35,481 nucleotides of DNA from Eubacterium sp. (GTDB lineage: Bacteria > Bacillota > Clostridia > Oscillospirales > Ruminococcaceae). Below the pieces are notes generated by a model that saw only the letters and a list, made by a program, of their open reading frames with translations, did no database searches and was not told where the DNA came from. Within the stretch, counting starts at the first letter, position 1. Every line of letters starts with the position of its first letter. Where the stretch lies: the NCBI GenBank assembly GCA_022511265.1, contig JAFLRX010000013.1, forward strand, positions 1 to 35,481. The letters are read 5' to 3'. Made by a program: the position numbers and the translations under genes. Of the stretch, positions 13,714 to 35,481 are shown in pieces.

Positions 13714-16700
13714 TTATTTTCTGCGGCGTTTTACCGCTGTGGTGGTAATTGCTGCCAGCATAGCCATCGGCACTGCGAACAAGCCGTTCACTTGTATACC
13801 GGTTGAGGGGTTGTCTGCGTCGGCAGGCGCTTCGGTAGTAGGTGCGTCGGTTGCAGGAGCATCGGTTGCCGAAGGCTCGGTTGCAGGAGCGTCAGTCGCC
13901 GGGGGCTCGGTCGCGGGGGCGTCGGTCATAGGCGGCTCGGTCGCGGGAGCGTCGGTCGTCGGTGGCTCGGTTGCGGGAGCGTCGGTCACCGGAGGTTCGG
14001 TCTCGGGCGGCTCTGTCGTCGGAGGTACAGGTGCCTCATAGGTGTTGACAAACACCAGACTGTCTGTATCTTCGTCTATTATTACCGTACCGTCTTCATC
14101 GTCATAGCATGCGGTTACCGTCAGATTGCCCTGCATGTCGTCAACGACTGTAACAAGCAGGATATAAGGATTAGCATAAGTCATATTTTCTATTCCTGTG
14201 TCGGTCTCGGTTATCCTGAAGATATAGCTGTTAACAGCTGAGCCGTTGGATTTAACGGCAAGCTCAAACGCGCCGCTTGCGTTATCTGCGTCAAGAACGA
14301 CGGAGTCTTTCGCTATTGTGATATATCCGTCCTCTATTGCCTGTGCGGTATCGCCCTTGCTGTCGGCAGGCGCGATGGTGAACTCAAATTCTTCATCCTC
14401 CCACGGCTTACCGTTCAGTATTTTCGCTATCGGGATCAGATAAGTTTTGCCTGCGCTGTAGGTGTTGGTGACGGTTACGTTTGCGTTGCCCTCAACTTGG
14501 GCTGTCAGACCGTCGTTGGTCTCAACAACATTTACCGTTACGATATGGTCAGCGGTGTCATAGCTCATGCCTATGTTGTCAAGACCTGCGGTCTCTTTGA
14601 TGATGAAATCATAGCTGCCCGCTTTATAGAACGCTATATTGTCAAAGGCCTTGAATAATGTGCCGTCATTGCGGATGTCAGCTATAGTCAGTGTTATCTC
14701 GGTATCGCCGATAAATTCCATCGCGTTGCCGTAATCCTCGGCAGCGGTCAGCGTAAAGCTAAACTCGTCGCCTGCAATTACATCTCTGCCGTTTATCACC
14801 TTGGTGACTGACAGCTGTACCTCGTCCTTTGCGGGATAGGTGTTGGTAAAGATATAATCGTTATTGTTATATGCAGTACCGTTGTTGTCGGCTGCTTCAA
14901 AACGTGTTCTGTCGATAAGCTGCGGGATAAGGCTGCCGTAGCCGTCATCCTCCACATCTGCCGTCAGCACATAATAGCCGCTGTCGTAGATAAGGTCGGT
15001 CTCGCTGTCGGCGGGTTTTTCGCTGAGCTTAAAGGTGTAGATGCCGGGCTTTGAGAATATTACATTGTCAAATGATTTGTGTGCCTCTGTCCTTGTGCCG
15101 ACGGTACCGGTGACGGTGATGTCAGCAGGCATTGTAATGTCATCCGCAGTCACACCGTCGGGTGTGCCGATAAGTTCGAGTGTAAATGCAAACTTATCTT
15201 CCGTTCTCCACGCTCTGCCGGTCAGCTGCTTTGTGACCTCGGGCGGCCATACGCCCTCCGAGCTGTAGATATTGGTGAAGGTGAACTCGCCGCCGTCTAT
15301 CACTTCCGCCGAAAGCTGTCCGTTATTGTCGTCGGTTACGCGTACAGTAAAGGTCATGACAGTATTGTTAGGCGCAATGCCTATGATGCTGTGCGGCTTC
15401 TCACTGACGGTAAACTTATAGTCGCCCGCCTCGTTAAAGGTGACAGCGCCTCCATTTACGCTTATCGGGCCGTCTGCGTCATCAGAGCCGTATACGGTTA
15501 ATGTATTATCTGTTATCGTTACCTTGTCGCCGTATTCATCGGCGATCTTGATAATAAAATCAAACTTGTCGGACTCTCTCCAGTCTCTGCCTTCCAGCAC
15601 CTTGGTTATGGTGATGATGTCGGAAAGCTTTGCGGATGCTGCCTTGTAGGTGTTGACAAAGGGCAAAGCGTCTTTGGAGAATGTCCCTGCGGCCATGTCA
15701 CTTGTTATCTCGGTATCGTCTATATAAAGAGTACCGTTCTTGTCGTCCTTTACGGTTACAACTATCGTATAGGTAACGGGGTCGGATTTCAGTCCGGCTG
15801 CGTCTATCGGTTCTTCAATCAGCGTAAAGGTATAAGTACCCTTTGCGTCAAGCAGTATGGCACCGAATGTGCCGGGATATGCCGTTCCCTCGTCCTTGCC
15901 GTTGTCAACTGCCGTTGTCCATGTGCTGCCGACTGCAACAGATGCGGGAGCTGTCTCAGCGTCTATATCTGTCAGAGTAAGGATAAACCGGAACAAGTCG
16001 CCGCTTATCCAGTCTCTGCCGTTCAGCGTGGTTGTAACGCCAATGTTCAGTTCTGCGCTGTTAGACACGTATTTGTTGGTAAAGGTCATCTCGTCGCCTG
16101 TTTTGCCTGCCGCACTGTAGGAAATATCCGCGGACAGCTGACCGTCCTTGTCGGTCACGGTGACGGTGACGGTGTAGGTGTTTTTGTCGAATATAAGACC
16201 GTTTTTGCCGTCGTCGGTCTTATCTTCGGAAACAGTATAGGTATAGATACCCGCCGCGGTGTATTCGATATCACCGAATGTGAACACGCCGTTTACCGCG
16301 CTGACTGTCGTATTTGCAGGTACAGGATATGCAGCATTGTCGGGGACGAGTACGAACTTAAATCTGCCGTTGTCGTCAGTCGTCCAGCTGCGTCCGTCTA
16401 TGGTCTTGATACCTTGTATCTTTGCAGTCGTGGGCTTTACCGCATAGGTGTTGACAAAATCAATGCTGTCGTATTTGTTGCCGTCTTCATCTTCGATGGT
16501 ATAAGTTATTGAGAATTTGTTGCCGGTCTCGGTGACAGTAACGGTGACAACGTAGACGGTTTCATTGTATGTCATACCGCTTGTGTATGCCGAGCTGCTC
16601 TGGCTTATCGTATATTCATAAATTCCCTCGGTATAGTATACCTCGTCAATGAGAGCGATGAGGTCAAAGGGCACTTCCGATGTTTCGGGGTCGTACTTAA

Positions 16701-19700
16701 ACTCAACGGTATTGGTATAATCCTTTCCGGTGACGGTGTAGGTGAAGGTTTCACCTGTATAGCCTGTGCGCTTGTCTAACGGACCTGTTACATTTGCCGT
16801 GCCGTCAAGTGTGAAGGCATAGTCTCTGTAGTAGTTGGTGAAATCAAATGAGGTTATCGCAGTAACACTTTCATCAACTGACGCAACGAGCGTACCATTG
16901 GTGAAATCATCGGTAACCTTGACTGTTACGGTATAAGCGGTCTCATCATATTTTATTCCGACGATGCTGCCCTTGGTCTCGGTGACGGTGAGGGTATATG
17001 TACCCGCCGCGCTGAAGACTACATCGCCGAAAGATGCGGTCTTGTCTGCCATTGTGTGATCTATAGTAACATCAGACGGGCAGGTCACATTTCCGCTGTT
17101 GGCACCTGTTGTCGCTATGCTGAAGGTAAAGCTGTCGCCCTCTGCCCATTCTTCTCTGCCGATAAGTGTTTTGTTAACAGGGAGAGGAGCCCATTCAGCG
17201 TCATCGGGTGTATACTCATAGATGAATTCGGCTGTAATAACAGCTTCATCATCATAATCGAATGTACCTGCGGTATTATCAGATGACTTCAGGCTGTACG
17301 GCGCATTCTGCGCGGATTTCTCCTTAACGGTATAAGAGGTGCCGTCGGGTATGCCGTTTATCGTCAGGGTCTCGCCGTGCTTTACGGTTATTTCCGCCGT
17401 ACCGTCCGCGACTGTCAGCGTACTGCCGTCGGACATCGGGTACTCGTTATCGGGCAGACCGCTTATCACATATACAAATTCCTTGTTTTCGTCAACCTTG
17501 CCGCCCTTGGTGTTCTCGATTTCTACGGATACACTCAGCGAGCAGGTGTTGACGATAAGCTCAACGGTGGACGGACTGCCGTCATAGTCCGCAGGCGCGT
17601 TGGCGTAGTATATGCTGTCGCCGTCATAATCCGTCTCGCTGACCTCTGAGGTGCTTGTAAGGGTGGTTTCATCCGCGCTTACAAAAGGCACAGTGACGCT
17701 GTAGGAGAGGGAATAATGATCCTCCGGCTCCGGTTTTTCGTCAATGGTCCATGTTATGGTGATTATGCCGTCGGTCTCTGTTACCGTTACATCCTCACGT
17801 CCCTCAAAGGGGTTGACGTCATCAACAAACCTCACTCCTGCGGGGAGGGTATCGGTTATCGTGAATTTGTCGTGGGCTGTATAGTCATCATCGTTTTTGA
17901 CGGTTACGGTGTACTCGACAGTATCGCCGGGTGTGACGTATAGCGTATCTGTAGAAGCCTCGTCATTGCTGTCGGACTTCTTCTGCGTCTTGATGACGGT
18001 CAACTCGGCAGGCTTTAGGTTGTTTGTAAACACATAATGGATGTTGGAGGAGACAAGCGTGCCGGAGCTGTTCGCGTTATTAAAGCCTGCTTCGATGGTG
18101 GCGTCTATCTCATTCTCATTATCGCCCGGTGTAGAGCTGTCGGTGTTTGCGTCGCCGCCTGTCTCTACTTCATCAACATAAACATCATAATTCTCTTCAT
18201 TGTCGGCGCTTCTCTTCTCGGTGACGGTGTACTTGCCCTTAATGACATATATAGTTATCTCTTGACCGAAGGGCAGATCTTTAATCGTCAGCGTGTTGTT
18301 TTTGTCAAACATCAGCTCTTTGACTGTGTCGGGGTTGATGTTCTCAACCAGCATGCCATCTGTATCGGAATACTCAAAGAACAGGCCGGTTATAGGTATA
18401 GACTTTTCATCCGCCTCGATGGTGATGTCAAAGGTGTTTTCGCACTCGTCGTACTTGTCGCCTTTTTCAATATTGAAGGTCAGCGGTCCGCGGTTTTCGT
18501 AAAAGTCGAGGATAACCTGAGTCTTGTAATTATCTTGGTTGACCCGCGTGTGGGAGATGCCGGCTGTCGCGGAGATGCCTGCCTCTGCCTCGTTTTGGCT
18601 CGGCATCTTTACAATTTGGACAAGGTCTCTGCCTTCGCTGCGGATGCTGTAGGTAGGATTCTTTTTGAGCCACTTCAATATCTGGCCGGCATATACGTCG
18701 ATAAAGACGGTGGTCTGGGTCGTTCCGGGATAAACTACCGCAAATTCATCAAGAGAGATGTCGATAAGCTCGCGGCCCTCTATCGGCAGACCTTCCTCAT
18801 CTACTATTCGGCCGACAACCTCATATTCAATGTCCTCGGTCCTTTCAGGCGGTATTGCCTCCCAAACGGCTTTCAGGTTGATAACGTAACGCTTGGTACC
18901 GTCCTCGTCAAAGTATCTTATCTCTCCGTACCAGTACTTTGCAATATCGGCAAGCGAAATGCCCTCTCCGGAATTTATGTACTGTTTACTGTTGGCGTAT
19001 TCATAATTTCCGTCTCGTTTATCGTCGCTGTCTTTCTCTATTTCCCAGCCGACAAACTTCATCTTGCCGTTAAGGTCAACAGGAGTATTATACAGAATGG
19101 TGACCATGTTGTGTTCGGTCATATCGTAGAATTTCACATTGCCGTTGACGTCGTTAGAGTCGTAGTATTTACCCGGCTCTTCAGGATACTCCCATATACT
19201 GGGCATTACGCTCTTATCCCAGTTGATGTTTTGTCCGATGAGCAGTTCGTCCTCCTCGGTAAGCGTAACGATGTCATCGCTGTACTCACCGTCGGGGTTG
19301 TATCTGATGATGTATTTTACAGGCGTTGCGTAGATGTAGAGCAAAGAGATTTTCTGCTCGTCGGCAGGTCTGTTAAGGGTGATATAATACCATTCGCCCG
19401 CCGCCTTGTTATCCAGCTGTCCTTTTATCTTATTTCCTTCTTTATCTACCAATACGTTGCCGTCTGTACCCTTCAGTTCGTAAGATACATCCTCGTACGA
19501 CTCCAGCAGCTTAAAGCGGAGGTTGCCGCTGCCGTCGCTGCCGCTGTAGATATTTTCGTACGGGAAGTCTACCATAACGGAACCCTGCTTCCATTCATTC
19601 GACCAACCGCTTGCACTGTATTGTTGAACGGCAGTCACATTTTTATCCGAGCAGTATGTGCCTGTAAGCGAGTAAACGGATATTTCGTTAGAACCGGCTC

Positions 19701-21414
19701 CGATCATAAGGTTGGCGTTGGTTACGGTGACGCCGGTGTGCGCACCGGTGATGGTCAGCTTATACACGCGCTGAGGGACATAGTTGTTCGGACGGCCTGC
19801 GAATAAGCGCAGATAATCCAGACGTGCCACTGCGCCGTCAGGCAGAGTTGTCAGCGTATAGTTTAGTCCCAGCTCCGGTTCTTTGACCGTCTTCGGCATA
19901 TGGTTAGTGTTCCAGACCTCTACCTCTCCGTAATCCTCCTGAGGCGAGAACGGGATAGCAATGCTGACGCCGTTTAACTCCATCGTATCCAGAGTATAAC
20001 CGCCTTCATTGGCATTAGTCTGGAAGATCCATGTGTAGGTATATGCGCCTGTAGGTTTCTTGGTTATCTCATCTTTTTCTTCAGCCATTTCAACAGCTTG
20101 GTCTTTTAATACACTTTCGTCATTTTGCCAACCCCATTTATCGCCGCTGTTAATGTTGGGGTAGTTCCCGTTCCTATCAAGAGCATCATCGGCGCCTGTA
20201 GTTGCACGGTTGCTCGCATTATTTGTTGTCAGCCAATCCTTTACGCTGAATTGCGGCACGGTATCGCGCTTGGTCAGGATGACCTCGATATGTCGGTCCT
20301 CAATAACGTCAGAGGTGGGGAAGGTCCTGCTCAGAGAGAGGGCAGCGGGTAAAGGATCATCGTTAGCGTCTTTCTCCAACGCAATGATCTTGCCGTCTAC
20401 CATCTTGTATATCGGCTCGGTACCGATAGGATAATCGTCGGTACGTTTAACCTGCGCCGCATCGGGAAATTCAGAGTCGGGGCTTTCATATCTGCTGTAT
20501 CTGTATACCTCTGCGGTATATTCTACAGGTACGTCAACGCTGAAAGCATAATAGCTGTCATGCGGGAGATTTTGCACGCGGTTTTCGCCGAAAACAGCGT
20601 CCAGCGTCAGTTCGGACGCACTGACGTCGTCCTCGGTGACATCTCTTATTACGCCGTTTTCCTCTATCTTGACGCTGTATGACACTTCATACGGTGCCTG
20701 CTCGTAGTTGAGGACAAATTTCTTATCGGTCTCGCCGTCATCCTCTTTCATTACCGTTACGCCGACGGTGGCACTGTTGCCCTGTCCTGCGGTGGAGTAA
20801 TAATAGTATAACTCGCCGTTGAACTCAATAGCGCCGATGTATGTAACCGCAACGCCGTCAACGGTAATATTTTTATACTGATAACGAATTCTCTTATAGC
20901 CGTTGCCGTCAACACCCTTTGACCATACATAGATATACTCGTCAAACGTAGGGAAGAGCGAGGCGTCCGACGCGCTGCAATAAAAATAGCGCGCGGCGTT
21001 CTCATCCTGAGGGATGGTAAGCTCCCAGTCCTTAGGCAGCTCAAAGTCTAATTCAAAGCCGGAATAACCGTTGGCCTCGACATAATATTCCTCGGCGGTG
21101 ACAGTGTTACCGTCTCCGTCTGTTACAGGGGCTAAGAAGTTCAGAGCGAACATGTCGTTTGGTACGGTTCTGGTCTCTGTATCATCAGCCTTGCTATCTG
21201 CATCGTCAGAGCCTTCATCGACAGCCGAAATCTCGGTCGTCTCTTCGGCGTCAATGTCATCGCAGCTTCCTTCTATATCTGTTATATCGGCAGCTACAGC
21301 GCCGTTAGCCAGCATCATCTGCGATTCATACACGTAATAAAGCTCTCCGACGCTCAAGGTCAGGATAGCCGCAGCCGCAGTGATCGCCAGCAGTTTCCTT
21401 AAAATTTTGTTCAT
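13714..21414 (-). CDS. Giant sortase-anchored surface protein with eight Spy0128/FctA-like isopeptide domains
   Basis: 2566 residues. The start has an AGGAGGT site (21423-21429). Signal peptide 1-42 (MNKILRKLLAITAAAAIL...GAVAA). Residues 43-690 are unassigned beta-rich sequence; about 690-855 resemble listerial/InlB-type repeats (YIIRYNPDGEY ... KFVGWEIE ... NLKAVWEA). About 1160-1285 is DUF11-like (TPGDTVEYTVTVKN ... ITDTLPAGVRFV), then a DUF5979/7601-like domain to 1400. Residues 1404-2460 are eight tandem domains of 124-145 residues with the pilin Lys...Glu...Asn pattern, for example VTKVINGRD, then KET, then VTNTY. A Pro/Thr repeat (TDAPATEPP) leads to NPSTG (2535-2539), a hydrophobic helix and KRRRK, a sorting signal variant of LPXTG. 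Likely a long covalently anchored stalk or adhesin. Ligand unknown; no sortase gene in this window. Confidence 0.88.
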   Translation of the reverse strand: MNKILRKLLAITAAAAILTLSVGELYYVYESQMMLANGAVAADITDIEGSCDDIDAEETTEISAVDEGSDDADSKADDTETRTVPNDMFALNFLAPVTDGDGNTVTAEEYYVEANGYSGFELDFELPKDWELTIPQDENAARYFYCSASDASLFPTFDEYIYVWSKGVDGNGYKRIRYQYKNITVDGVAVTYIGAIEFNGELYYYYSTAGQGNSATVGVTVMKEDDGETDKKFVLNYEQAPYEVSYSVKIEENGVIRDVTEDDVSASELTLDAVFGENRVQNLPHDSYYAFSVDVPVEYTAEVYRYSRYESPDSEFPDAAQVKRTDDYPIGTEPIYKMVDGKIIALEKDANDDPLPAALSLSRTFPTSDVIEDRHIEVILTKRDTVPQFSVKDWLTTNNASNRATTGADDALDRNGNYPNINSGDKWGWQNDESVLKDQAVEMAEEKDEITKKPTGAYTYTWIFQTNANEGGYTLDTMELNGVSIAIPFSPQEDYGEVEVWNTNHMPKTVKEPELGLNYTLTTLPDGAVARLDYLRLFAGRPNNYVPQRVYKLTITGAHTGVTVTNANLMIGAGSNEISVYSLTGTYCSDKNVTAVQQYSASGWSNEWKQGSVMVDFPYENIYSGSDGSGNLRFKLLESYEDVSYELKGTDGNVLVDKEGNKIKGQLDNKAAGEWYYITLNRPADEQKISLLYIYATPVKYIIRYNPDGEYSDDIVTLTEEDELLIGQNINWDKSVMPSIWEYPEEPGKYYDSNDVNGNVKFYDMTEHNMVTILYNTPVDLNGKMKFVGWEIEKDSDDKRDGNYEYANSKQYINSGEGISLADIAKYWYGEIRYFDEDGTKRYVINLKAVWEAIPPERTEDIEYEVVGRIVDEEGLPIEGRELIDISLDEFAVVYPGTTQTTVFIDVYAGQILKWLKKNPTYSIRSEGRDLVQIVKMPSQNEAEAGISATAGISHTRVNQDNYKTQVILDFYENRGPLTFNIEKGDKYDECENTFDITIEADEKSIPITGLFFEYSDTDGMLVENINPDTVKELMFDKNNTLTIKDLPFGQEITIYVIKGKYTVTEKRSADNEENYDVYVDEVETGGDANTDSSTPGDNENEIDATIEAGFNNANSSGTLVSSNIHYVFTNNLKPAELTVIKTQKKSDSNDEASTDTLYVTPGDTVEYTVTVKNDDDYTAHDKFTITDTLPAGVRFVDDVNPFEGREDVTVTETDGIITITWTIDEKPEPEDHYSLSYSVTVPFVSADETTLTSTSEVSETDYDGDSIYYANAPADYDGSPSTVELIVNTCSLSVSVEIENTKGGKVDENKEFVYVISGLPDNEYPMSDGSTLTVADGTAEITVKHGETLTINGIPDGTSYTVKEKSAQNAPYSLKSSDNTAGTFDYDDEAVITAEFIYEYTPDDAEWAPLPVNKTLIGREEWAEGDSFTFSIATTGANSGNVTCPSDVTIDHTMADKTASFGDVVFSAAGTYTLTVTETKGSIVGIKYDETAYTVTVKVTDDFTNGTLVASVDESVTAITSFDFTNYYRDYAFTLDGTANVTGPLDKRTGYTGETFTYTVTGKDYTNTVEFKYDPETSEVPFDLIALIDEVYYTEGIYEYTISQSSSAYTSGMTYNETVYVVTVTVTETGNKFSITYTIEDEDGNKYDSIDFVNTYAVKPTTAKIQGIKTIDGRSWTTDDNGRFKFVLVPDNAAYPVPANTTVSAVNGVFTFGDIEYTAAGIYTYTVSEDKTDDGKNGLIFDKNTYTVTVTVTDKDGQLSADISYSAAGKTGDEMTFTNKYVSNSAELNIGVTTTLNGRDWISGDLFRFILTLTDIDAETAPASVAVGSTWTTAVDNGKDEGTAYPGTFGAILLDAKGTYTFTLIEEPIDAAGLKSDPVTYTIVVTVKDDKNGTLYIDDTEITSDMAAGTFSKDALPFVNTYKAASAKLSDIITITKVLEGRDWRESDKFDFIIKIADEYGDKVTITDNTLTVYGSDDADGPISVNGGAVTFNEAGDYKFTVSEKPHSIIGIAPNNTVMTFTVRVTDDNNGQLSAEVIDGGEFTFTNIYSSEGVWPPEVTKQLTGRAWRTEDKFAFTLELIGTPDGVTADDITMPADITVTGTVGTRTEAHKSFDNVIFSKPGIYTFKLSEKPADSETDLIYDSGYYVLTADVEDDGYGSLIPQLIDRTRFEAADNNGTAYNNNDYIFTNTYPAKDEVQLSVTKVINGRDVIAGDEFSFTLTAAEDYGNAMEFIGDTEITLTIADIRNDGTLFKAFDNIAFYKAGSYDFIIKETAGLDNIGMSYDTADHIVTVNVVETNDGLTAQVEGNANVTVTNTYSAGKTYLIPIAKILNGKPWEDEEFEFTIAPADSKGDTAQAIEDGYITIAKDSVVLDADNASGAFELAVKSNGSAVNSYIFRITETDTGIENMTYANPYILLVTVVDDMQGNLTVTACYDDEDGTVIIDEDTDSLVFVNTYEAPVPPTTEPPETEPPVTDAPATEPPTTDAPATEPPMTDAPATEPPATDAPATEPSATDAPATDAPTTEAPADADNPSTGIQVNGLFAVPMAMLAAITTTAVKRRRK
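13830..14035 (-). repeat. TDAPATEPP-type repeat in the wall-spanning region
   Basis: A run of 21-30-bp imperfect repeats encoding TEPP/TDAPAT units (residues about 2461-2530). Pro/Thr-rich segments before sorting signals usually cross the cell wall. Confidence 0.85.
14035..17205 (-). repeat. Array of eight FctA/Spy0128-like domains
   Basis: Approximate residue ranges: D1 1404-1530, D2 1532-1658, D3 1659-1784, D4 1785-1925, D5 1926-2053, D6 2054-2198, D7 2199-2322, D8 2323-2460. Each starts with a (T)K-x-L-x-G-R strand, has a Y-x-(F/V)-x-(V/I)-x-E strand and ends F-x-N-x-Y. In the known Spy0128 fold those Lys, Glu and Asn form an internal isopeptide bond. D1, D3 and D5-D8 keep all three; D2 and D4 do not (see findings). 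Protein identity between units is low, so the duplications are old. Confidence 0.8.
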
Positions 21415-28027: not shown

Positions 28028-28654
28028 CTAAAGCGGATTACAGTGGTATCTGAAATTTCCGCTGTTTGCTCTTATTTCGGCGCTTTTAAGCACCTCGTCT
28101 ATCGCCGCGTAATCGTCTTGATATACGTTGTGTGTATCGTAGGAGAACACGACGTACACTATCGTCGAGTTTGATTCGTCGGTCGTAATTTTCGTTATGT
28201 ACTCATTTATGAATATTTTCAGTCGGTTTATCGCGGTGTTGAGGTCAGCGTCGTCTCGTATCTCATACATACCCTCGCCGAAATCGCTGTTACTGCCGAA
28301 GGACAGATAACGCACGGCGTTGTCGTATTTGTTCTCAAGCCCGACGTTTATCACAAAAACGACGTCGTCCATATATTCATAGCTTTCGAGCCGTTTTTCC
28401 GCCTCGTCCAGCCGCTCGATAAGCTCTTCAAGACTTCCCTCGCTGAGCTTTGCCAGCGCCTCGTTAAGCTGCTCGGTCAGATCGTCTATCTCGTTTTCTT
28501 TTTCGAGATTTTCGGTCTGCGCCGCTTCCAGCGCCGTCTGCTTTTCGGTGATAAGCTTGCTGTTTTCCGCCATCACCATGAAAATGATTATCATAATTAC
28601 GTCAAGCAGTGAGGTGAGCTCGATAATGATATCGCGTCTTCGTCTGCGCCGCAT
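28028..28654 (-). CDS. ExbD/TolR-like proton-channel subunit with coiled-coil insert
   Basis: 208 residues. A short Arg-rich start (RRRRRR) is followed by the helix IIIELTSLLDVIMIIIFMVMA. It aligns with the ExbD helix (VTPFIDVMLVLLIIFMV); Asp18 matches the proton-carrying aspartate. Residues about 30-90 are a strongly charged coiled coil (LEAAQTENLEKENEIDDLTEQLNEALAKL style) that ordinary ExbD lacks; 95-208 are an outer alpha/beta domain ending in a HCNPL tail. The start codon overlaps the stop of the ExbB-like gene (TAATG), so the two are co-translated. Expected to form, with the ExbB-like subunit, an ion-driven motor complex in the membrane. See finding for why this is unexpected here. Confidence 0.75.
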   Translation of the reverse strand: MRRRRRRDIIIELTSLLDVIMIIIFMVMAENSKLITEKQTALEAAQTENLEKENEIDDLTEQLNEALAKLSEGSLEELIERLDEAEKRLESYEYMDDVVFVINVGLENKYDNAVRYLSFGSNSDFGEGMYEIRDDADLNTAINRLKIFINEYITKITTDESNSTIVYVVFSYDTHNVYQDDYAAIDEVLKSAEIRANSGNFRYHCNPL

Positions 28655-29115
28655 TATTGCTCCCTCTTTTCTTCGTCGTACTCATGTATGAGGTAGTCAG
28701 CCTCGTCAAGAGCCGAGTCAAGGCGCGCGGTGATAAATGAGTCCATGATTTTGAAGATTATCGCCGCGACAAGTCCCGCAAAGGTGGTTATCAAGGCCGA
28801 TGAAAAATTCGCGGACAAATCATCCGTCCCCGAAAGCCGCATAAGCGACGCCACCGTGCCCAGTATTCCGAGCAACGGGAACACCGCCGTGATGTTCGTA
28901 AAAAGCGCGTAAACCCCGGAGGCTTTGCCGGCACAATCCAACAGCTCGCGGCTTTCCTCATCGGAAAGCTTCAGCTTTGCCTCGATACCTATTCTTCGGT
29001 CGGTTTTCGGACGTACGATGCCTTCAAGCTTTTTTATCATTTTCAGATTGAAATAGAAAACCGCAATATTAAACGCGAACAGCAAAATGATCATGACTGT
29101 TATAATTTCGGGCAT
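28654..29115 (-). CDS. ExbB/TolQ/MotA-like proton-channel subunit
   Basis: 153 residues. The start is ATG 29115, 7 nt after GGAG; the ATG at 29121 lies only 1 nt from it. Three membrane helices: about 3-28, then SGVYALFTNITAVFPLLGILGTVASLM, then SALITTFAGLVAAIIFKIMDSFI. The LGILGTVxSLM and ALITTFAGLVAAI strings are the MotA/TolQ/ExbB signature; the conserved Thr-Thr of the third helix is present. At 153 residues it is shorter than E. coli ExbB (about 240), lacking the large cytoplasmic domain. It is the first gene of the operon under a perfect promoter at 29156. Confidence 0.8.
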   Translation of the reverse strand: MPEIITVMIILLFAFNIAVFYFNLKMIKKLEGIVRPKTDRRIGIEAKLKLSDEESRELLDCAGKASGVYALFTNITAVFPLLGILGTVASLMRLSGTDDLSANFSSALITTFAGLVAAIIFKIMDSFITARLDSALDEADYLIHEYDEEKREQ

Positions 29116-29155
29116 AGACATTCTCCGTTCGTAAAAAATATTATACTTTATCTAC

Positions 29156-29195: not shown

Positions 29196-29224
29196 TTGCG
29201 TTTTTTTCTTGAAAAAGGTACAAT
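29196..29224 (+). promoter_or_regulatory. Predicted promoter of the structured leader
   Basis: TTGCGT (29196-29201, weak -35), 17-bp spacer, TACAAT (29219-29224). The expected start, about 7 nt later, is 29231, exactly the first base of the long stem. The -35 is poor, so this is moderate support. Confidence 0.5.
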
Positions 29225-29230
29225 ACGTGT

Positions 29231-29507
29231 AGGCATATTGGAATCGAACCCAAGCCGCCTCACAGCGACCCTTTTGGGCGCTTTTTGCCCTTTCTTCTTA
29301 GGAGGGCGCCAGCCCGCCGTCATCAGAAATGACAAAAATCACCTCAAAATGATTCGCTGTGAGGTGCCTTGCAGTTTTTACGGAGCAGATTTTTACCGAG
29401 ACTAGAAAAATACCGCAGGCAATACTTGCGTATTGGCAAGGGATTTGACGACGTATCGGTGAAAATATGCCCGTAAAAACCGACTTGGGTTCGACTCCCG
29501 TATGCCT
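29231..29507 (+). ncRNA. Candidate structured RNA, three-way junction leader
   Basis: Outer stem: 29231-29254 pairs with 29484-29507 (22 of 24 positions, one G-U). Branch A: CCTCACAGCGA (29258-29268) with TCGCTGTGAGG (29354-29364), perfect, enclosing GGGC/GCCC hairpins. Branch B: TTTTTACGG (29375-29383) with CCGTAAAAA (29471-29479), perfect; inside it 29389-29402 pairs with 29453-29466 (12 of 14) and a terminal hairpin CAATAC-TTGC-GTATTG (29420-29435). The junction linkers are 3, 10 and 4 nt. The right arm of the outer stem contains GGGTTCGACTCCC, like a tRNA T-arm, but no tRNA can be folded. No known riboswitch or RNA class was recognised. It ends 4 nt before the GGAGG of the next gene. Could instead be a dispersed DNA repeat. 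Confidence 0.6.
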
Positions 29508-29522
29508 GATTGGAGGTATAAA

Positions 29523-29936
29523 ATGAACAGACTGAATAATATGGAATTTGACGCAAGCTGTAAGAAAACAACGGCGGTTATCGCGGGATTGTTATTTTTG
29601 CTTGCCGCGCTGTGGTTCGCGGACAGGGCAGGGCTTTCGCCATGGTTAAGGTTTGTAGTGGTATTCACGGGTGATCTGTGTGCCTGCGCAATAATAACGC
29701 TGTATTGCAGGATGGTGACTTATGCGTTATTTCCCGAGCGGGGGAAAGCGCGGCTTATCGCTTTTCATATCGCCGATACAGTCGGCGAGGTGCTGAAGTT
29801 GGTTTTTCTGCTGCTGCCGATAGTGATCTACGGAGCAACAAACCCTCTGCCGCAGCTGCTCGCACTGATAACGGATATTGCTTTGTCAAGATATTTTTAT
29901 GTCGGTTTGCTGAAATCAGATACAGGTGTTGAATAA
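29523..29936 (+). CDS. Small four-helix membrane protein, unknown function
   Basis: 137 residues from ATG 29523, which has GGAGGT 5-6 nt upstream. Four hydrophobic segments: about 16-38 (TTAVIAGLLFLLAALWFA), 41-66 (WLRFVVVFTGDLCACAIITLYC), 78-104 and 109-130. Two Cys in helix 2. No motif I recognise. It starts 15 nt after the structured element, whose outer stem may control its translation. It is convergent with the PHP gene and ends at a shared terminator. Confidence 0.7.
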   Translation: MNRLNNMEFDASCKKTTAVIAGLLFLLAALWFADRAGLSPWLRFVVVFTGDLCACAIITLYCRMVTYALFPERGKARLIAFHIADTVGEVLKLVFLLLPIVIYGATNPLPQLLALITDIALSRYFYVGLLKSDTGVE

Positions 29937-30935: not shown

Positions 30936-30989
30936 ATATAATATATTTTGATTTTATATAATCAAAAACTAAATGAAAGGGTGACGTTA

Positions 30990-33900
30990 ATGACACAAAG
31001 AAAACCATCAGTACGAATTATCTCATTTCTTTTGGCGATCGCAATGTTGTTCACGCTGCTTCCGAATGGGCTGAAAGCCTATGCGGCGGACATTCATGAC
31101 TTTATAAGCTATGAGATAACTTACTTCGGACTTACCCCTGATGATGACGGTGTAGTAAAGAACGGTACATCGTTTGAGGTCAGGCTGGAGGGCTCCATAA
31201 GCGCGGATTATACAGATACCGTTTTGCCTTTGGAATTTACTATCGACCTTGAAACAAGCGAAGTAAAGCTTTCCGGATCGGGTACGATCAACTATAACGG
31301 CACGCGTGCCGGATCATTTACGGTCGATGCCGACGGAACGGTTCATATAACCATAGATGACAATGCCGGAGGCAACAGCTTTATCAACCAGGGCAACAGA
31401 AATTTCAGCCTTGAGTTCAGCGCGGCTGTTGACGCCGAGGAAACAGAGGACGGCTCTGAGAAAGATACGACTGTAAAGGTCGGCGAGCAGGAGATAGATG
31501 TTACGGTCCAATTCCCCGACAGTTATCTTAACGGCGAAAAGACGGCAGTGGGCGAGGCTTGGTATGACCCTGATACCGATATGGTGTATCAGACATACAT
31601 TATCAGGCAGACCGCTGTCAACGGAAATGTGTCCGAGGCATATATCTATGACTATATGGGCGAGTGGCTCAGCGGTCCTGTTGACGATGTAAAGATCACC
31701 TACGATATATACGGAAAGTACGACGGTCCGAAAGAATCCTATGAATATGCGGAGCAGGAAAGCGATTCCGAATTTTACGTATATATACCGGAAATACGCA
31801 AGGGCGAAACGATAGAGATAGAATATACCCTTGCTATTGATAAGAAATATTTCTCGTTTGAGGATTATGATAACAGAAGCCTTAATCAGTTTGGCAGCGA
31901 TTATGTGGACCAGAACGGAAATGACCATGACCCGACGCCCGACGGTTGGGTATATCCTAACGTCGAGAGACCCGGCGTAACCAAGGGCGGAGAGTACACC
32001 GTCAACGGCGACGAGGTCGTATGGACTATCATAGTCGACGCGGGTATTTTTGAGACTTGCGATGATTTCATTGCTGATTTCGGCATCACAGTGACAGATA
32101 TCCCCGGTGACGGTCTTGCCGATGAGGGCGAAAAGATAATTTTGCCGTCATATACAAATAACGGCGACGGTACATATACCTTTACCTATACTACAGAGCT
32201 GACCGACGAAGTCATCTCGCAGCTGAAGGACCTGTCGAAAACCGTAACGGTGCATAACGATGTACTGGCAGGAAACGACGACTTTACCTTCAGCGGCGAG
32301 GCTGACGTCACCAGAGACGGCATAGGCATTCTTGACAAAGAAGCGACTGCGACAGGGCCTGACGCGGACGGCAGATTTGCATGGAAGAGTACGCTGACCA
32401 TCCCCGTTGAGGGTATTGAGGGTCTGGTATTTACCGATTCTACCGCGGGCAGCAAAAACGGCCACAAGATAATAAAAGATACGATGGTGATAGACGGCAC
32501 GCCCATCGCCGAGCTTGAAAAGGCAGGCAAGGTGACTGTCACAGTCAGCGGCAGACAGCTTGTTGTCGCCTTCTCAGATGATTATCTTGCTGAATTACAG
32601 GCTAACAACAGGCGCGCGCACACCATCGACGGCTATCAGGGTAATGTTTATCTTGCCGATATAGTTATCACCTATATGACAGAGCCTGATAATGATGCGG
32701 ACCTTGACGGCTCTTACACCTTCACAAATACCTCCGATCTCGAATATACGATAACCGACAGCGGCGATAAGGTAACCGCCACTGACAGTGACGAATATAT
32801 TCAGATAATAGAGGCGAAAAAGTATTTCAGCAAGCAGGGCTTAGAGTGGTCGTCGCTTAACAGCGACTGGCTGATAGACCTTGAGGTCAGGCTCGACGAG
32901 CTTGAGGTCGGCGATGTGTTTAAGATAATAGACACACCCGAAAATATGGAAATTATCGAGGATACGATAATTCCGTACGTGCATCTCAACGGCTGGACTA
33001 CTACCGAAATATCGGAAATATACGATGACATTGACAGCTTTTTGACCTTTAGGGATAACAAAAACGGCACCTACACCTTCACATTTACGATCACACAGGG
33101 GCTGTATGATGCGGTATACGGCGCGTTAGAAAGCTGGGTGCCTGCGTCAGACGTATATTTCTCGATAGGCTATTGCACGAGAATAACCAACCCCGACGAG
33201 TGGGATTGGGACACAGAGTACACCAACACCGCGGACGGAACCTTTAACGGCAACCCCGGAGAGCAGACAATAGCAACAAGACACTTCAGCAAAAACGACA
33301 ACGTTTCTAAGCGGTTTATTTATTCCATTGATAACGATAAATTCGATTTCGGCGTAAGCAACGGAAAGCTGAATGCCAGATTTGAAGTAAAGATAAACCC
33401 GAACTCTCTCATGCTCGGCAACGAAGATGTTATTTATCTGACCGACAAGATGAGCGAAGGGCTGGTAATGATACCCGCCAGCACCGTAATCACAGACGCC
33501 GTGACAGGAAAGGTGCTTAAAAACGGCGATGATTACTTCATTGATTTTGATGAAGATAAGAACGAGATATATTTTACCGTTCCTAACGGCAGAAGCCTGC
33601 TGCTTACATATATGGCTGAGATAGCGGGTGACGCTCCTGTCATCGGCGAGCCTGACGTAGGATTTGCGGCAGGCAATACGATAGAGCTGTATGTCAAGGA
33701 CGGTGCATCTTTCGCATCCAATACAGATGCGAGCGGCAACATATTCAAGTCGTCCGGTACTCTCATATCGGAAGGATATTCTATCACAGTATCCAAGGTA
33801 AGCGAAATAAACGGCACCAAGCTCTTCCCCGAGGGCGCAAATTTTGAGGTAGTAAGAGTATACTACAACGAACTGACCGAAGAGTTTGAGCTGGCTACCG

Positions 33901-35481
33901 ACAATATGCAGGGCGAAAATATTGTGGTCACCCCTATTGAGGGAACAAACCTGACCACCATAACAGGTCTGGTGCCCGACGCTGTTTACAGACTTAAAGA
34001 GACAGAGGTTCCCGACGGATTTAAACTTTCGGATCAAGTGATTTATTTCATGTTCCCGGTAGACCCCGGCACAGTCGTTCCTCCGGGAGTAGTGGTATTT
34101 GACAATTTGGAAGTACTCTACTTCAACAACGATCCTGACTTTGGCGGTCTGAAGATATTCAAGACGGTAGATAACGAGAACATAACCGACGCAGAGCTGA
34201 GAAATGCGCTGACATTCACTGTGCAGAAAGAGGACGGCAAGTACGTTGACGAAGAAGGCAAGCTGCACGACGAACCGGTCGAAATTCCTTTCAGAAGCTT
34301 TAAGAAGCAGAGCGACGGCTCGTTTGTACTGACGTTCACACAGCTGCCCGCGGGCACATATACCGTCACCGAGACCAACACCGAGATAGACGGCTATAAG
34401 CTGATAACCGACGCCAGCGTCACTGAAGGCACAGTCGAGGTAGTAACCGGAGATATATCAGAAATCTCTCTGAGAGACAGCTATGAAGAAGTAGGCAATC
34501 TGACGATAACCAAGTCTATTGACGGTCTTAACGTCACCGATGAGGAAAAAGCAGGCGGACTTAAATTCACGGTACGGAACAAGGACGGCAAGTACCTTGA
34601 CATAGACGGCACTCTGCATGATGAAATTGTCGAGATAACGCTGGATAAGTTTACGCAGCGTGACGGCATCTATGTGCTGGAATTTACGGATATCCCTGTC
34701 GGTGAATATACAGTTACCGAGACCAACACCGAGATAGAAGGCTACAAGTTCATCAGCGAGGAAAGCGCCACCTCAGACAGTGCGGAAGTAAAGCATAAAC
34801 AAACCGCTGAGATCGGGCTGAGCGACAGCTATGAAGAAGTAGGTAACCTGAAGATAACCAAGTCTATTGACGGACTGAATGTCACCGATGAGGAAAAGGC
34901 AGGCGGGCTGAAATTTACCGTACGGAACAAGGACGGCAAGTATCTTGACGTAGACGGCAGTCTGCATGATGAAATCGTTGAGATAACACTGGATAAGTTC
35001 ACTCAGAAAGCTGACGGCACCTATGAGCTGATATTTACGGATATTGCTGTCGGCGAATACACCGTCACCGAGACCAACACAGAGATAGACGGCTACAGGT
35101 TCCTCAGAGAGGAAAGCGTCACCTCCGACAGTGCGGAGGTAAAGCAGAAAGAAACTGCCGAGATAGCACTGAGCGACAGCTACGAGGCTATAGGTAACCT
35201 GAAGATAACCAAGTCGATAGACGGTCTTAACGTCACCGATGAGGAAAAGGCAGGCGGACTTAAATTTACCGTAAAGAACAAGGACGGCAAGTACCTTGAC
35301 ATAGACGGCACTCTGCATGATGAAATTGTTGAGATAACACTTGATAAGTTTACTCAGAAGGACGACGGCACTTATGAGCTGATATTCACGGATATTGCCG
35401 CCGGTGAATACACTGTCACCGAAACCAATACCGAGATAGACGGCTACAGACTGGTTACCGACGCCAGCGTTACCGGCGACA
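30990..35481 (+). CDS. Second giant secreted surface protein with CnaB-like repeats (partial, 3' end outside window)
   Basis: 1497 residues visible. Start ATG 30990 with GAAAGGGTGA upstream. Signal peptide ending about residue 30 (LLPNGLKAYAA-D). Residues 30-1040 are a chain of beta-sandwich domains of the isopeptide-adhesin type, with recurring GTYTFT strands (NNGDGTYTFTYTTELTDE; NKNGTYTFTFTITQG) and an EYTNTADGTFNG strand. From about 1045 there are tandem 116-117-residue units, each with Lys (ITKSIDG), Glu (YTVTETNTE) and Asp (LSDSYE), matching a CnaB-type Lys-Asp isopeptide triad. The units resemble SpaA/DUF7601 stalk repeats. The C-terminus, where a sorting signal is expected, is missing. 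It is unrelated at sequence level to the giant gene at 13714 except in style. Confidence 0.85.
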   Translation, partial: MTQRKPSVRIISFLLAIAMLFTLLPNGLKAYAADIHDFISYEITYFGLTPDDDGVVKNGTSFEVRLEGSISADYTDTVLPLEFTIDLETSEVKLSGSGTINYNGTRAGSFTVDADGTVHITIDDNAGGNSFINQGNRNFSLEFSAAVDAEETEDGSEKDTTVKVGEQEIDVTVQFPDSYLNGEKTAVGEAWYDPDTDMVYQTYIIRQTAVNGNVSEAYIYDYMGEWLSGPVDDVKITYDIYGKYDGPKESYEYAEQESDSEFYVYIPEIRKGETIEIEYTLAIDKKYFSFEDYDNRSLNQFGSDYVDQNGNDHDPTPDGWVYPNVERPGVTKGGEYTVNGDEVVWTIIVDAGIFETCDDFIADFGITVTDIPGDGLADEGEKIILPSYTNNGDGTYTFTYTTELTDEVISQLKDLSKTVTVHNDVLAGNDDFTFSGEADVTRDGIGILDKEATATGPDADGRFAWKSTLTIPVEGIEGLVFTDSTAGSKNGHKIIKDTMVIDGTPIAELEKAGKVTVTVSGRQLVVAFSDDYLAELQANNRRAHTIDGYQGNVYLADIVITYMTEPDNDADLDGSYTFTNTSDLEYTITDSGDKVTATDSDEYIQIIEAKKYFSKQGLEWSSLNSDWLIDLEVRLDELEVGDVFKIIDTPENMEIIEDTIIPYVHLNGWTTTEISEIYDDIDSFLTFRDNKNGTYTFTFTITQGLYDAVYGALESWVPASDVYFSIGYCTRITNPDEWDWDTEYTNTADGTFNGNPGEQTIATRHFSKNDNVSKRFIYSIDNDKFDFGVSNGKLNARFEVKINPNSLMLGNEDVIYLTDKMSEGLVMIPASTVITDAVTGKVLKNGDDYFIDFDEDKNEIYFTVPNGRSLLLTYMAEIAGDAPVIGEPDVGFAAGNTIELYVKDGASFASNTDASGNIFKSSGTLISEGYSITVSKVSEINGTKLFPEGANFEVVRVYYNELTEEFELATDNMQGENIVVTPIEGTNLTTITGLVPDAVYRLKETEVPDGFKLSDQVIYFMFPVDPGTVVPPGVVVFDNLEVLYFNNDPDFGGLKIFKTVDNENITDAELRNALTFTVQKEDGKYVDEEGKLHDEPVEIPFRSFKKQSDGSFVLTFTQLPAGTYTVTETNTEIDGYKLITDASVTEGTVEVVTGDISEISLRDSYEEVGNLTITKSIDGLNVTDEEKAGGLKFTVRNKDGKYLDIDGTLHDEIVEITLDKFTQRDGIYVLEFTDIPVGEYTVTETNTEIEGYKFISEESATSDSAEVKHKQTAEIGLSDSYEEVGNLKITKSIDGLNVTDEEKAGGLKFTVRNKDGKYLDVDGSLHDEIVEITLDKFTQKADGTYELIFTDIAVGEYTVTETNTEIDGYRFLREESVTSDSAEVKQKETAEIALSDSYEAIGNLKITKSIDGLNVTDEEKAGGLKFTVKNKDGKYLDIDGTLHDEIVEITLDKFTQKDDGTYELIFTDIAAGEYTVTETNTEIDGYRLVTDASVTGD
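34140..35481 (+). repeat. Tandem 348-351-bp coding repeats (CnaB-like stalk)
   Basis: Equivalent lysine codons lie at 34161 (Lys1058), 34512 (Lys1175), 34860 (Lys1291) and 35211 (Lys1408): periods 351, 348 and 351 bp. Units 2-4 are nearly identical in DNA and protein; unit 1 is diverged. The array continues past the window edge. Confidence 0.9.

Follow-up and report, generated by a model that had tools for sequence, protein, structure and literature searches.

What is the folded, palindromic stretch of about 277 nt that lies between two genes in the 35,481-nt window (the whole stretch of DNA that was analysed)? The earlier note had described it as a three-way junction belonging to no known RNA class and had proposed an independent structured RNA or a cis-regulatory leader. 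When positions 29230-29508 were folded, the RNA MFE was -126.1 on the plus strand and -135.8 on the minus strand, compared with shuffle means of -74.6 and -79.4; the corresponding z scores were -10.2 and -11.8, and none of 200 shuffles was as low on either strand. In the predicted fold, two long arms branched from a closing stem made up of the terminal inverted repeats (TIRs). The outer inverted repeat (29231-29257 with 29481-29507, 27 nt) was 85% complementary, the arm-1 repeats (29251-29275 with 29347-29371) were 80% complementary, and the base of arm 2 was a perfect 10-bp stem (29374-29383 with 29471-29480). Both the folding of the two strands and these repeat coordinates bore out the three-way junction. 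The ends of the window copy were set at 29230 and 29508 by alignment with other copies (Table 1); the TG at its right flank is read as a decayed TA target duplication.

Table 1. Features of the element and its immediate neighbours in the window.
Feature	Position	Strand	Basis
Entire element, flanked by TA on the left and TG on the right	29230..29508	.	Ends common to aligned copies
Left TIR, TAGGCATATTGGAATCGAACCCAAGCCG	29230..29257	+	Inverted-repeat pairing; TIR pattern in 5/71 same-genus genomes
Arm 1, the junction's first branch, an imperfect palindrome	29258..29370	+	Fold; two-sided changes at 15/16 predictable pairs across genera
Arm 2 (model R1), the most conserved part, an imperfect palindrome of 112 nt	29371..29482	+	Fold; R1 match; two-sided changes at 37/39 pairs
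Right TIR	29481..29508	-	Inverted-repeat pairing; TIR pattern
MotA/TolQ/ExbB-family gene, left neighbour, host context outside the element	28654..29121	-	Pfam PF01618, E 7.9e-10
Small hydrophobic orphan protein, right neighbour, host context	29523..29936	+	No Pfam match

The element was present in multiple dispersed copies. The window's genome carried a second, shorter copy on another contig, and a search of 99 genomes gave some match in nine, with near-full-length copies in four other genomes of the same genus. The 28-nt TIR pattern (up to 3 mismatches) had 3, 22, 47, 43 and 63 matches in G000, G017, G029, G030 and G035, respectively, and none in the remaining 66 same-genus genomes; the reversed-pattern control had none in all 71. 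When named genomes were scanned with a TIR pattern of 25 nt, 70 stretches came up. Of these, 69 were in four MAGs whose titles read uncultured Ruminiclostridium and whose isolate names start with Lapin (read as rabbit gut), and the remaining one was in an Oscillospiraceae MAG. At L118 6128-6159, in the Oscillospiraceae MAG Hm464_bin57, there was an exact match to the TIR pattern with no second matching TIR in the 1.9 kb of sequence available.

TIR pairing gave 49 candidates; one overlapping 312-bp artefact was dropped, leaving 48 distinct elements from five same-genus genomes. Both flanks were TA in 32 of them and one flank in 11, and 5 had no TA flank. Several copies lay within frames that stayed open across a single TA. 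The copy at L029 split a receiver domain (left piece Response_reg 1-61, right piece 68-111, contiguous within about two residues), and the copy at L025 interrupted a MatE gene (left piece MatE 1-93 of 161, right piece MatE in two stretches); the halves of both genes were in frame over one TA. At L097 and L092, one flanking piece matched GerA and STAS, respectively, and the other piece matched nothing. Remnants of 42-49 bp (L088, L100, L107 and L146) retained the left TIR and at least part of the right one, with both arms gone. Internally deleted remnants, these four among them, were found in three genomes (G029, G030 and G035); extrusion and loss of the arms would be expected to leave them behind. 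A short form without the tip of arm 1, measuring 197-198 bp from one TIR core to the other, occurred at L002, L092, L093 and L097, in G000 and G017, and this subfamily may itself be mobile. In L014 (~1635-1690) and L012 (~1455-1500; a match in G012 that did not resolve into an element), two further stretches similar to each other, reading AACACCGCACAATTACCG.. and AACACCACACAGTTACCGG.., were seen next to or close to the matches, both with GC-rich, hairpin-like sequence after them; they are possibly a second dispersed repeat family.

We conclude that the feature in the window is probably one copy of a non-autonomous, palindromic, MITE-like mobile DNA element of ~277 bp that inserts into TA. The features by which MITEs are recognised were found: short length (<~600 bp) with no coding capacity, terminal inverted repeats, dispersal in multiple copies, and a target site duplication, the last seen in interrupted frames and flank counts rather than at an empty orthologous site. 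Against this reading stand the 16 of 48 copies without TA on one or both sides, one cross-genus TIR type (GACTGAT, in G062) that had no TA at its end, the class-wide conservation of the interior, which is not expected of ordinary MITEs, and the searches described below, in which no transposase with the same TIRs was found.

The dispersal bears directly on the proposed cis-regulatory leader for the small membrane protein encoded at 29523-29936. GGAGG (29512-29516, 4 nt after the element) and the ATG at 29523 were where the earlier note had placed them, and the promoter-like sequence it had named, TTGCGT (29196-29201), 17 nt, TACAAT (29219-29224), was present upstream; both would fit a leader. 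However, this sequence agreed with the consensus at only 8 of 12 positions (the -35 at 3 of 6), was missing from the three promoter-like sites of a consensus scan and lay outside the element, in a flank not common to 21 other aligned copies. The only perfect promoter in the region (TTGACA-17-TATAAT, minus strand, 29184 to 29156) faced the ExbB-like gene. A search for the downstream protein in 80 genomes returned its own genome and, beyond that, a single weak match (in G070, E 5.9e-4), and no orthologue of its gene was found among 47 same-genus relatives. Copies of the element flanked unrelated genes in both orientations. By a crude gene call, the flanking genes were tandem, divergent and convergent in 20, 15 and 5 copies of the window's family, in 15, 7 and 8 copies from other genera, and at 122, 68 and 40 background sites, with no clear orientation preference; this call labels the window copy tandem, yet its neighbours (28654-29121, minus strand, and 29523-29936, plus strand) are divergent. 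The lack of a clear orientation preference and the orphan nature of the downstream gene argue against a dedicated leader, which we regard as very improbable. Many copies at other sites, the outcome that the earlier note had set against its own reading, were what we observed. An independent RNA inside the mobile element stays compatible with these results.

Elsewhere in the window, a weakly ExbD-like gene (28028-28654, score below Pfam's cut-off) came after the ExbB/MotA-like gene. Two very large ORFs were also seen, one on the minus strand (13714-21414, 2566 aa) and one running off the window end (30948-35480, at least 1511 aa).

The reach of the element beyond the genus was estimated with R1, a covariance model built on 12 arm-2 sequences, among them the window copy, which scored 119.5 bits. 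In the order (E up to 1e-3), R1 matched 102 of 295 genomes, spread over 56 of 148 genera; in the class, taken to be Clostridia from genome names (E up to 1e-4), it matched 83 of 391, in 50 of 222 genera. These E-values are rough, at most 12 (order) or 9 (class) candidates were scored per genome, and the 308 class genomes without a match served as background in place of a shuffled control. Nearly all among the matches listed covered the whole model, and seven matches, two of them listed, were in the window's own genome. Five weak matches from the earlier search of 99 genomes, in G062, G065 and G014, proved to be complete elements, 247-278 bp long, that shared arm 2 but had TIRs of wholly different sequence. 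The occurrence of the same arm 2 in other genera with different TIRs indicates that the element is far older than one genus.

Among plasmids, blastn with the whole window element matched one record, from Vescimonas fastidiosa (query 27-252, 72% identity); the match covered the arms only, without the window TIRs, and the element there, 277 bp long, had its own TIR. The same plasmid record was matched by a query taken from L276, whose ends were estimated, over 18% of the query length. In viral_contigs, exact searches with one TIR pattern and two arm patterns gave no match. Two faecal scaffolds labelled 'Bacteriophage sp.', one of them marked unverified in its record, held relatives of the Vescimonas element: a whole one in L266 (MT837146.1, 3001-3282) and a partial one in MT836441.1 (7497-7701, 55% of the element). 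Both were 87-88% identical to the Vescimonas element, each in two pieces spanning more bases than the query, and they may hold insertions.

A set of 54 elements from 46 genomes or records, including the window copy and one G029 copy, revealed a constant plan with changing ends. The set comprised 62 elements (41 plus 21, inverted-repeat score at least 10) minus 8 outside 260-303 bp (161-252, 342 and 366 bp); lower inverted-repeat scores and truncated loci had been left out beforehand. Within these chosen limits, 41 of the 54 were 275-282 bp long. Their TIRs averaged 24.6 bp, with halves 90% identical within an element compared with 32% between 300 random pairs, elements having been kept only if an inverted repeat was found. 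TA stood at both start and end in 29 of 54, the automatic boundary being sometimes a few bases off. No common open frame was found: 14 of 324 element-frames were free of stops, spread over all six frames, and the longest stop-free run had a median of 79 aa and a maximum of 99. In an alignment of 35 elements (those of 245-303 bp from the 41-element set), mean pairwise identity was 0.41 and 0.42 in the two TIRs, 0.53 in arm 1 and 0.62 in arm 2, the arm-2 value being biased upwards as the cross-genus set was found with arm 2. Arm 1, which was not a search model, was still more alike than the TIRs. The interior is more conserved than the ends, the reverse of what the MITE model leads one to expect.

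The covariation among homologues that the earlier note had asked for was found both within the window's family, where two-sided changes occurred at 15 of 82 pairs, and across genera. Over the 54 elements, 94.4% of arm-2 cells were standard pairs compared with 71.9% in shuffles (none of 200 as high), and two-sided changes occurred at 37 of 39 pairs compared with 23.3. On the arm-1 side the values were 92.5% compared with 64.5%, and 15 of 16 predicted pairs compared with 12.7; the shuffles ignore relatedness among the 54 elements. We conclude that the arms are constrained as structures. Arms that are more alike than the TIRs and rich in compensatory change would suit a structured non-coding RNA of cellular or selfish function, mobile by chance, in which the TIRs form the closing helix of a three-way junction and the arms are functional domains. 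Arm 2 leaned to the plus strand: pairs predicted on both strands comprised 46 G-U and 19 A-C cells, and its minus strand folded better in only 6 of 54 elements, a hint at one preferred strand, although R1 was built on the plus strand and may favour it, and G-T pairs are tolerated in single-stranded DNA too. By contrast, arm 1 showed no strand bias (15 G-U and 14 A-C cells), the two strands of the whole element folded equally well, the minus strand being lower in 25 of 54 elements, and in the window's own family the minus strand was lower in 36 of 44 copies. The consensus scan placed no promoter inside the window copy and found there a single weak terminator-like hairpin (29276-29290, in arm 1; 0.6 expected). 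On balance, we consider it quite unlikely that the element is primarily an RNA of this kind.

The Rfam results touch the same question. The element resembles Rfam's structured RNAs in having a multi-branched fold with covariation, but no family reached its gathering score on any element tested: none in the window, and in 20 related loci only two tRNA genes, in agreement with the earlier note that the fold matches no known class. With lax thresholds on four loci, two matches appeared and were read as chance: MIR2933 scored 30.4 bits on arm 2 of L013 against a cut-off of 70, and tmRNA scored 12.1 bits on L006 against 47. The inner TIR resembles a T-arm (GGGTTCGAYTCCC), and elements of other genera had similar motifs there, a loose CGAAC-type motif being present in 37 of 54 elements. 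ARAGORN found no tRNA or tmRNA gene in the window. A tRNA origin of the TIR was rejected: four TIR variants compared with 56 tRNA sequences (G000, G029 and a few loci, tRNA-Ala not among them) gave best local scores of 11 to 15 out of 28, in the generic T-arm only, and the T-loop A was G in many copies.

If the element is mobile, as we think probable, an enzyme would be needed in trans. IS630- or IS427-like enzymes target TA, and the TA flanks point to them. The resident DDE_3 transposase that marks an IS630/Tc1-mariner MITE was found in none of nine carrier genomes. DUF4096, which we take to be the IS427 type and which would mark an IS5/IS427 MITE, was found in one of 32 genomes, that one being among the 19 carriers included. 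The TIR pattern of G329 gave 25 matches, which made 10 pairs of 280 bp each and 5 single ends. Near single TIR ends in draft genomes (37 ORFs in G029, G017, G329, G035 and G030), the families listed (25 of 102 for Pfam, 25 of 472 for NCBIfam) included no transposase; the single ends were internally deleted copies or lay next to genes that, by the families listed, were ordinary. Of 223 flanking proteins, 132 were scanned; no Pfam family had more than four members, and the 25 of 152 families listed, which included no transposase, marked the neighbours of copies as ordinary chromosomal genes. A 2.3-kb inverted TIR pair (G029:C3:135016-137320), considered as an autonomous partner, enclosed a glycosyl hydrolase 3 gene and had a truncated copy as one end; it was read as coincidence.

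Draft assemblies could hide the mobiliser, as insertion sequences can get lost from drafts. The element might then be an ordinary IS630- or IS427-derived MITE with its parent missing from the drafts, the arm conservation reflecting horizontal spread and not constraint. The TA target and TIRs fit this, metagenome bins often lack insertion sequences that are present in several copies, and several contigs ended inside copies. However, the TIRs should then equal the arms in conservation, whereas both arms were more alike (arm 2 being the search model); the arm changes were compensatory; and the IS630 and IS427 markers were absent from nearly all carriers tested. We think this origin unlikely. A somewhat different possibility, which we put forward tentatively and do not think probable, is a class-wide mobile element recognised by its shape: the arms, as single-stranded DNA or RNA, would be the recognition or replication module, the ends would need only to pair and mostly to begin with TA, and the mobiliser would be an unrecognised or host-encoded factor in many Clostridia.

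Comparison with known repeats placed the element beside several families and within none of those considered. ERIC is likewise a long imperfect palindrome with a TA target, but is shorter and is not known to have a separate pair of internal arms, and the element is set apart from it by this description. REP/REPIN palindromes are moved by RAYT (Y1) enzymes. REPs are 20-40-bp palindromes with GTAG or CGTC tags, whereas the element is ~277 bp long with TIRs of ~25 bp, TA flanks and TA as its commonest end. The likeness lies in the mobilisation in trans via hairpin recognition proposed for REPs, and in their palindromic, dispersed form (PMC3733652). Bacterial MITEs such as Correia, QMITE2 and Chunjie are described, in the available part of a review, as short, multi-copy sequences with TIRs, a target duplication, stable stem-loop transcripts and both intergenic and intragenic insertion (PMC10969869). 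Unlike these, the present element has an interior that is recognisable over many genera and TIRs that differ. Neither 'Clostridi' nor 'Firmicutes' occurred in that review, and no description of such an element family was found in an open-access library, whose scope leaves out most subscription journals. The MITE-like kind is already known; what is new is the conservation pattern, the class-wide span and the failure to find a mobiliser.

Our preferred reading, a non-autonomous mobile DNA element, suggests how this pattern may have arisen. The element would insert into TA, catalysed by an enzyme acting in trans, and its TIR sequence would drift with the enzyme of each lineage. The arms may be kept because the element needs a folded form, whether a cruciform, single-stranded DNA or a transcript, for mobilisation, copying or tolerance by the host. 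One copy would have landed at 29230, between the divergent ExbB-type gene and the small orphan gene, and would now form the upstream region of that orphan gene by accident. An arm-2 match was present in about a fifth of the class genomes and a third of the order genomes sampled, for an element to which no Rfam family matched at its cut-off. The interior is kept while the ends change, the reverse of the MITE model, and the element therefore offers, besides a repeat marker for Clostridia, a case in which mobilisation guided by structure, or a selfish structured RNA, can be tested directly.
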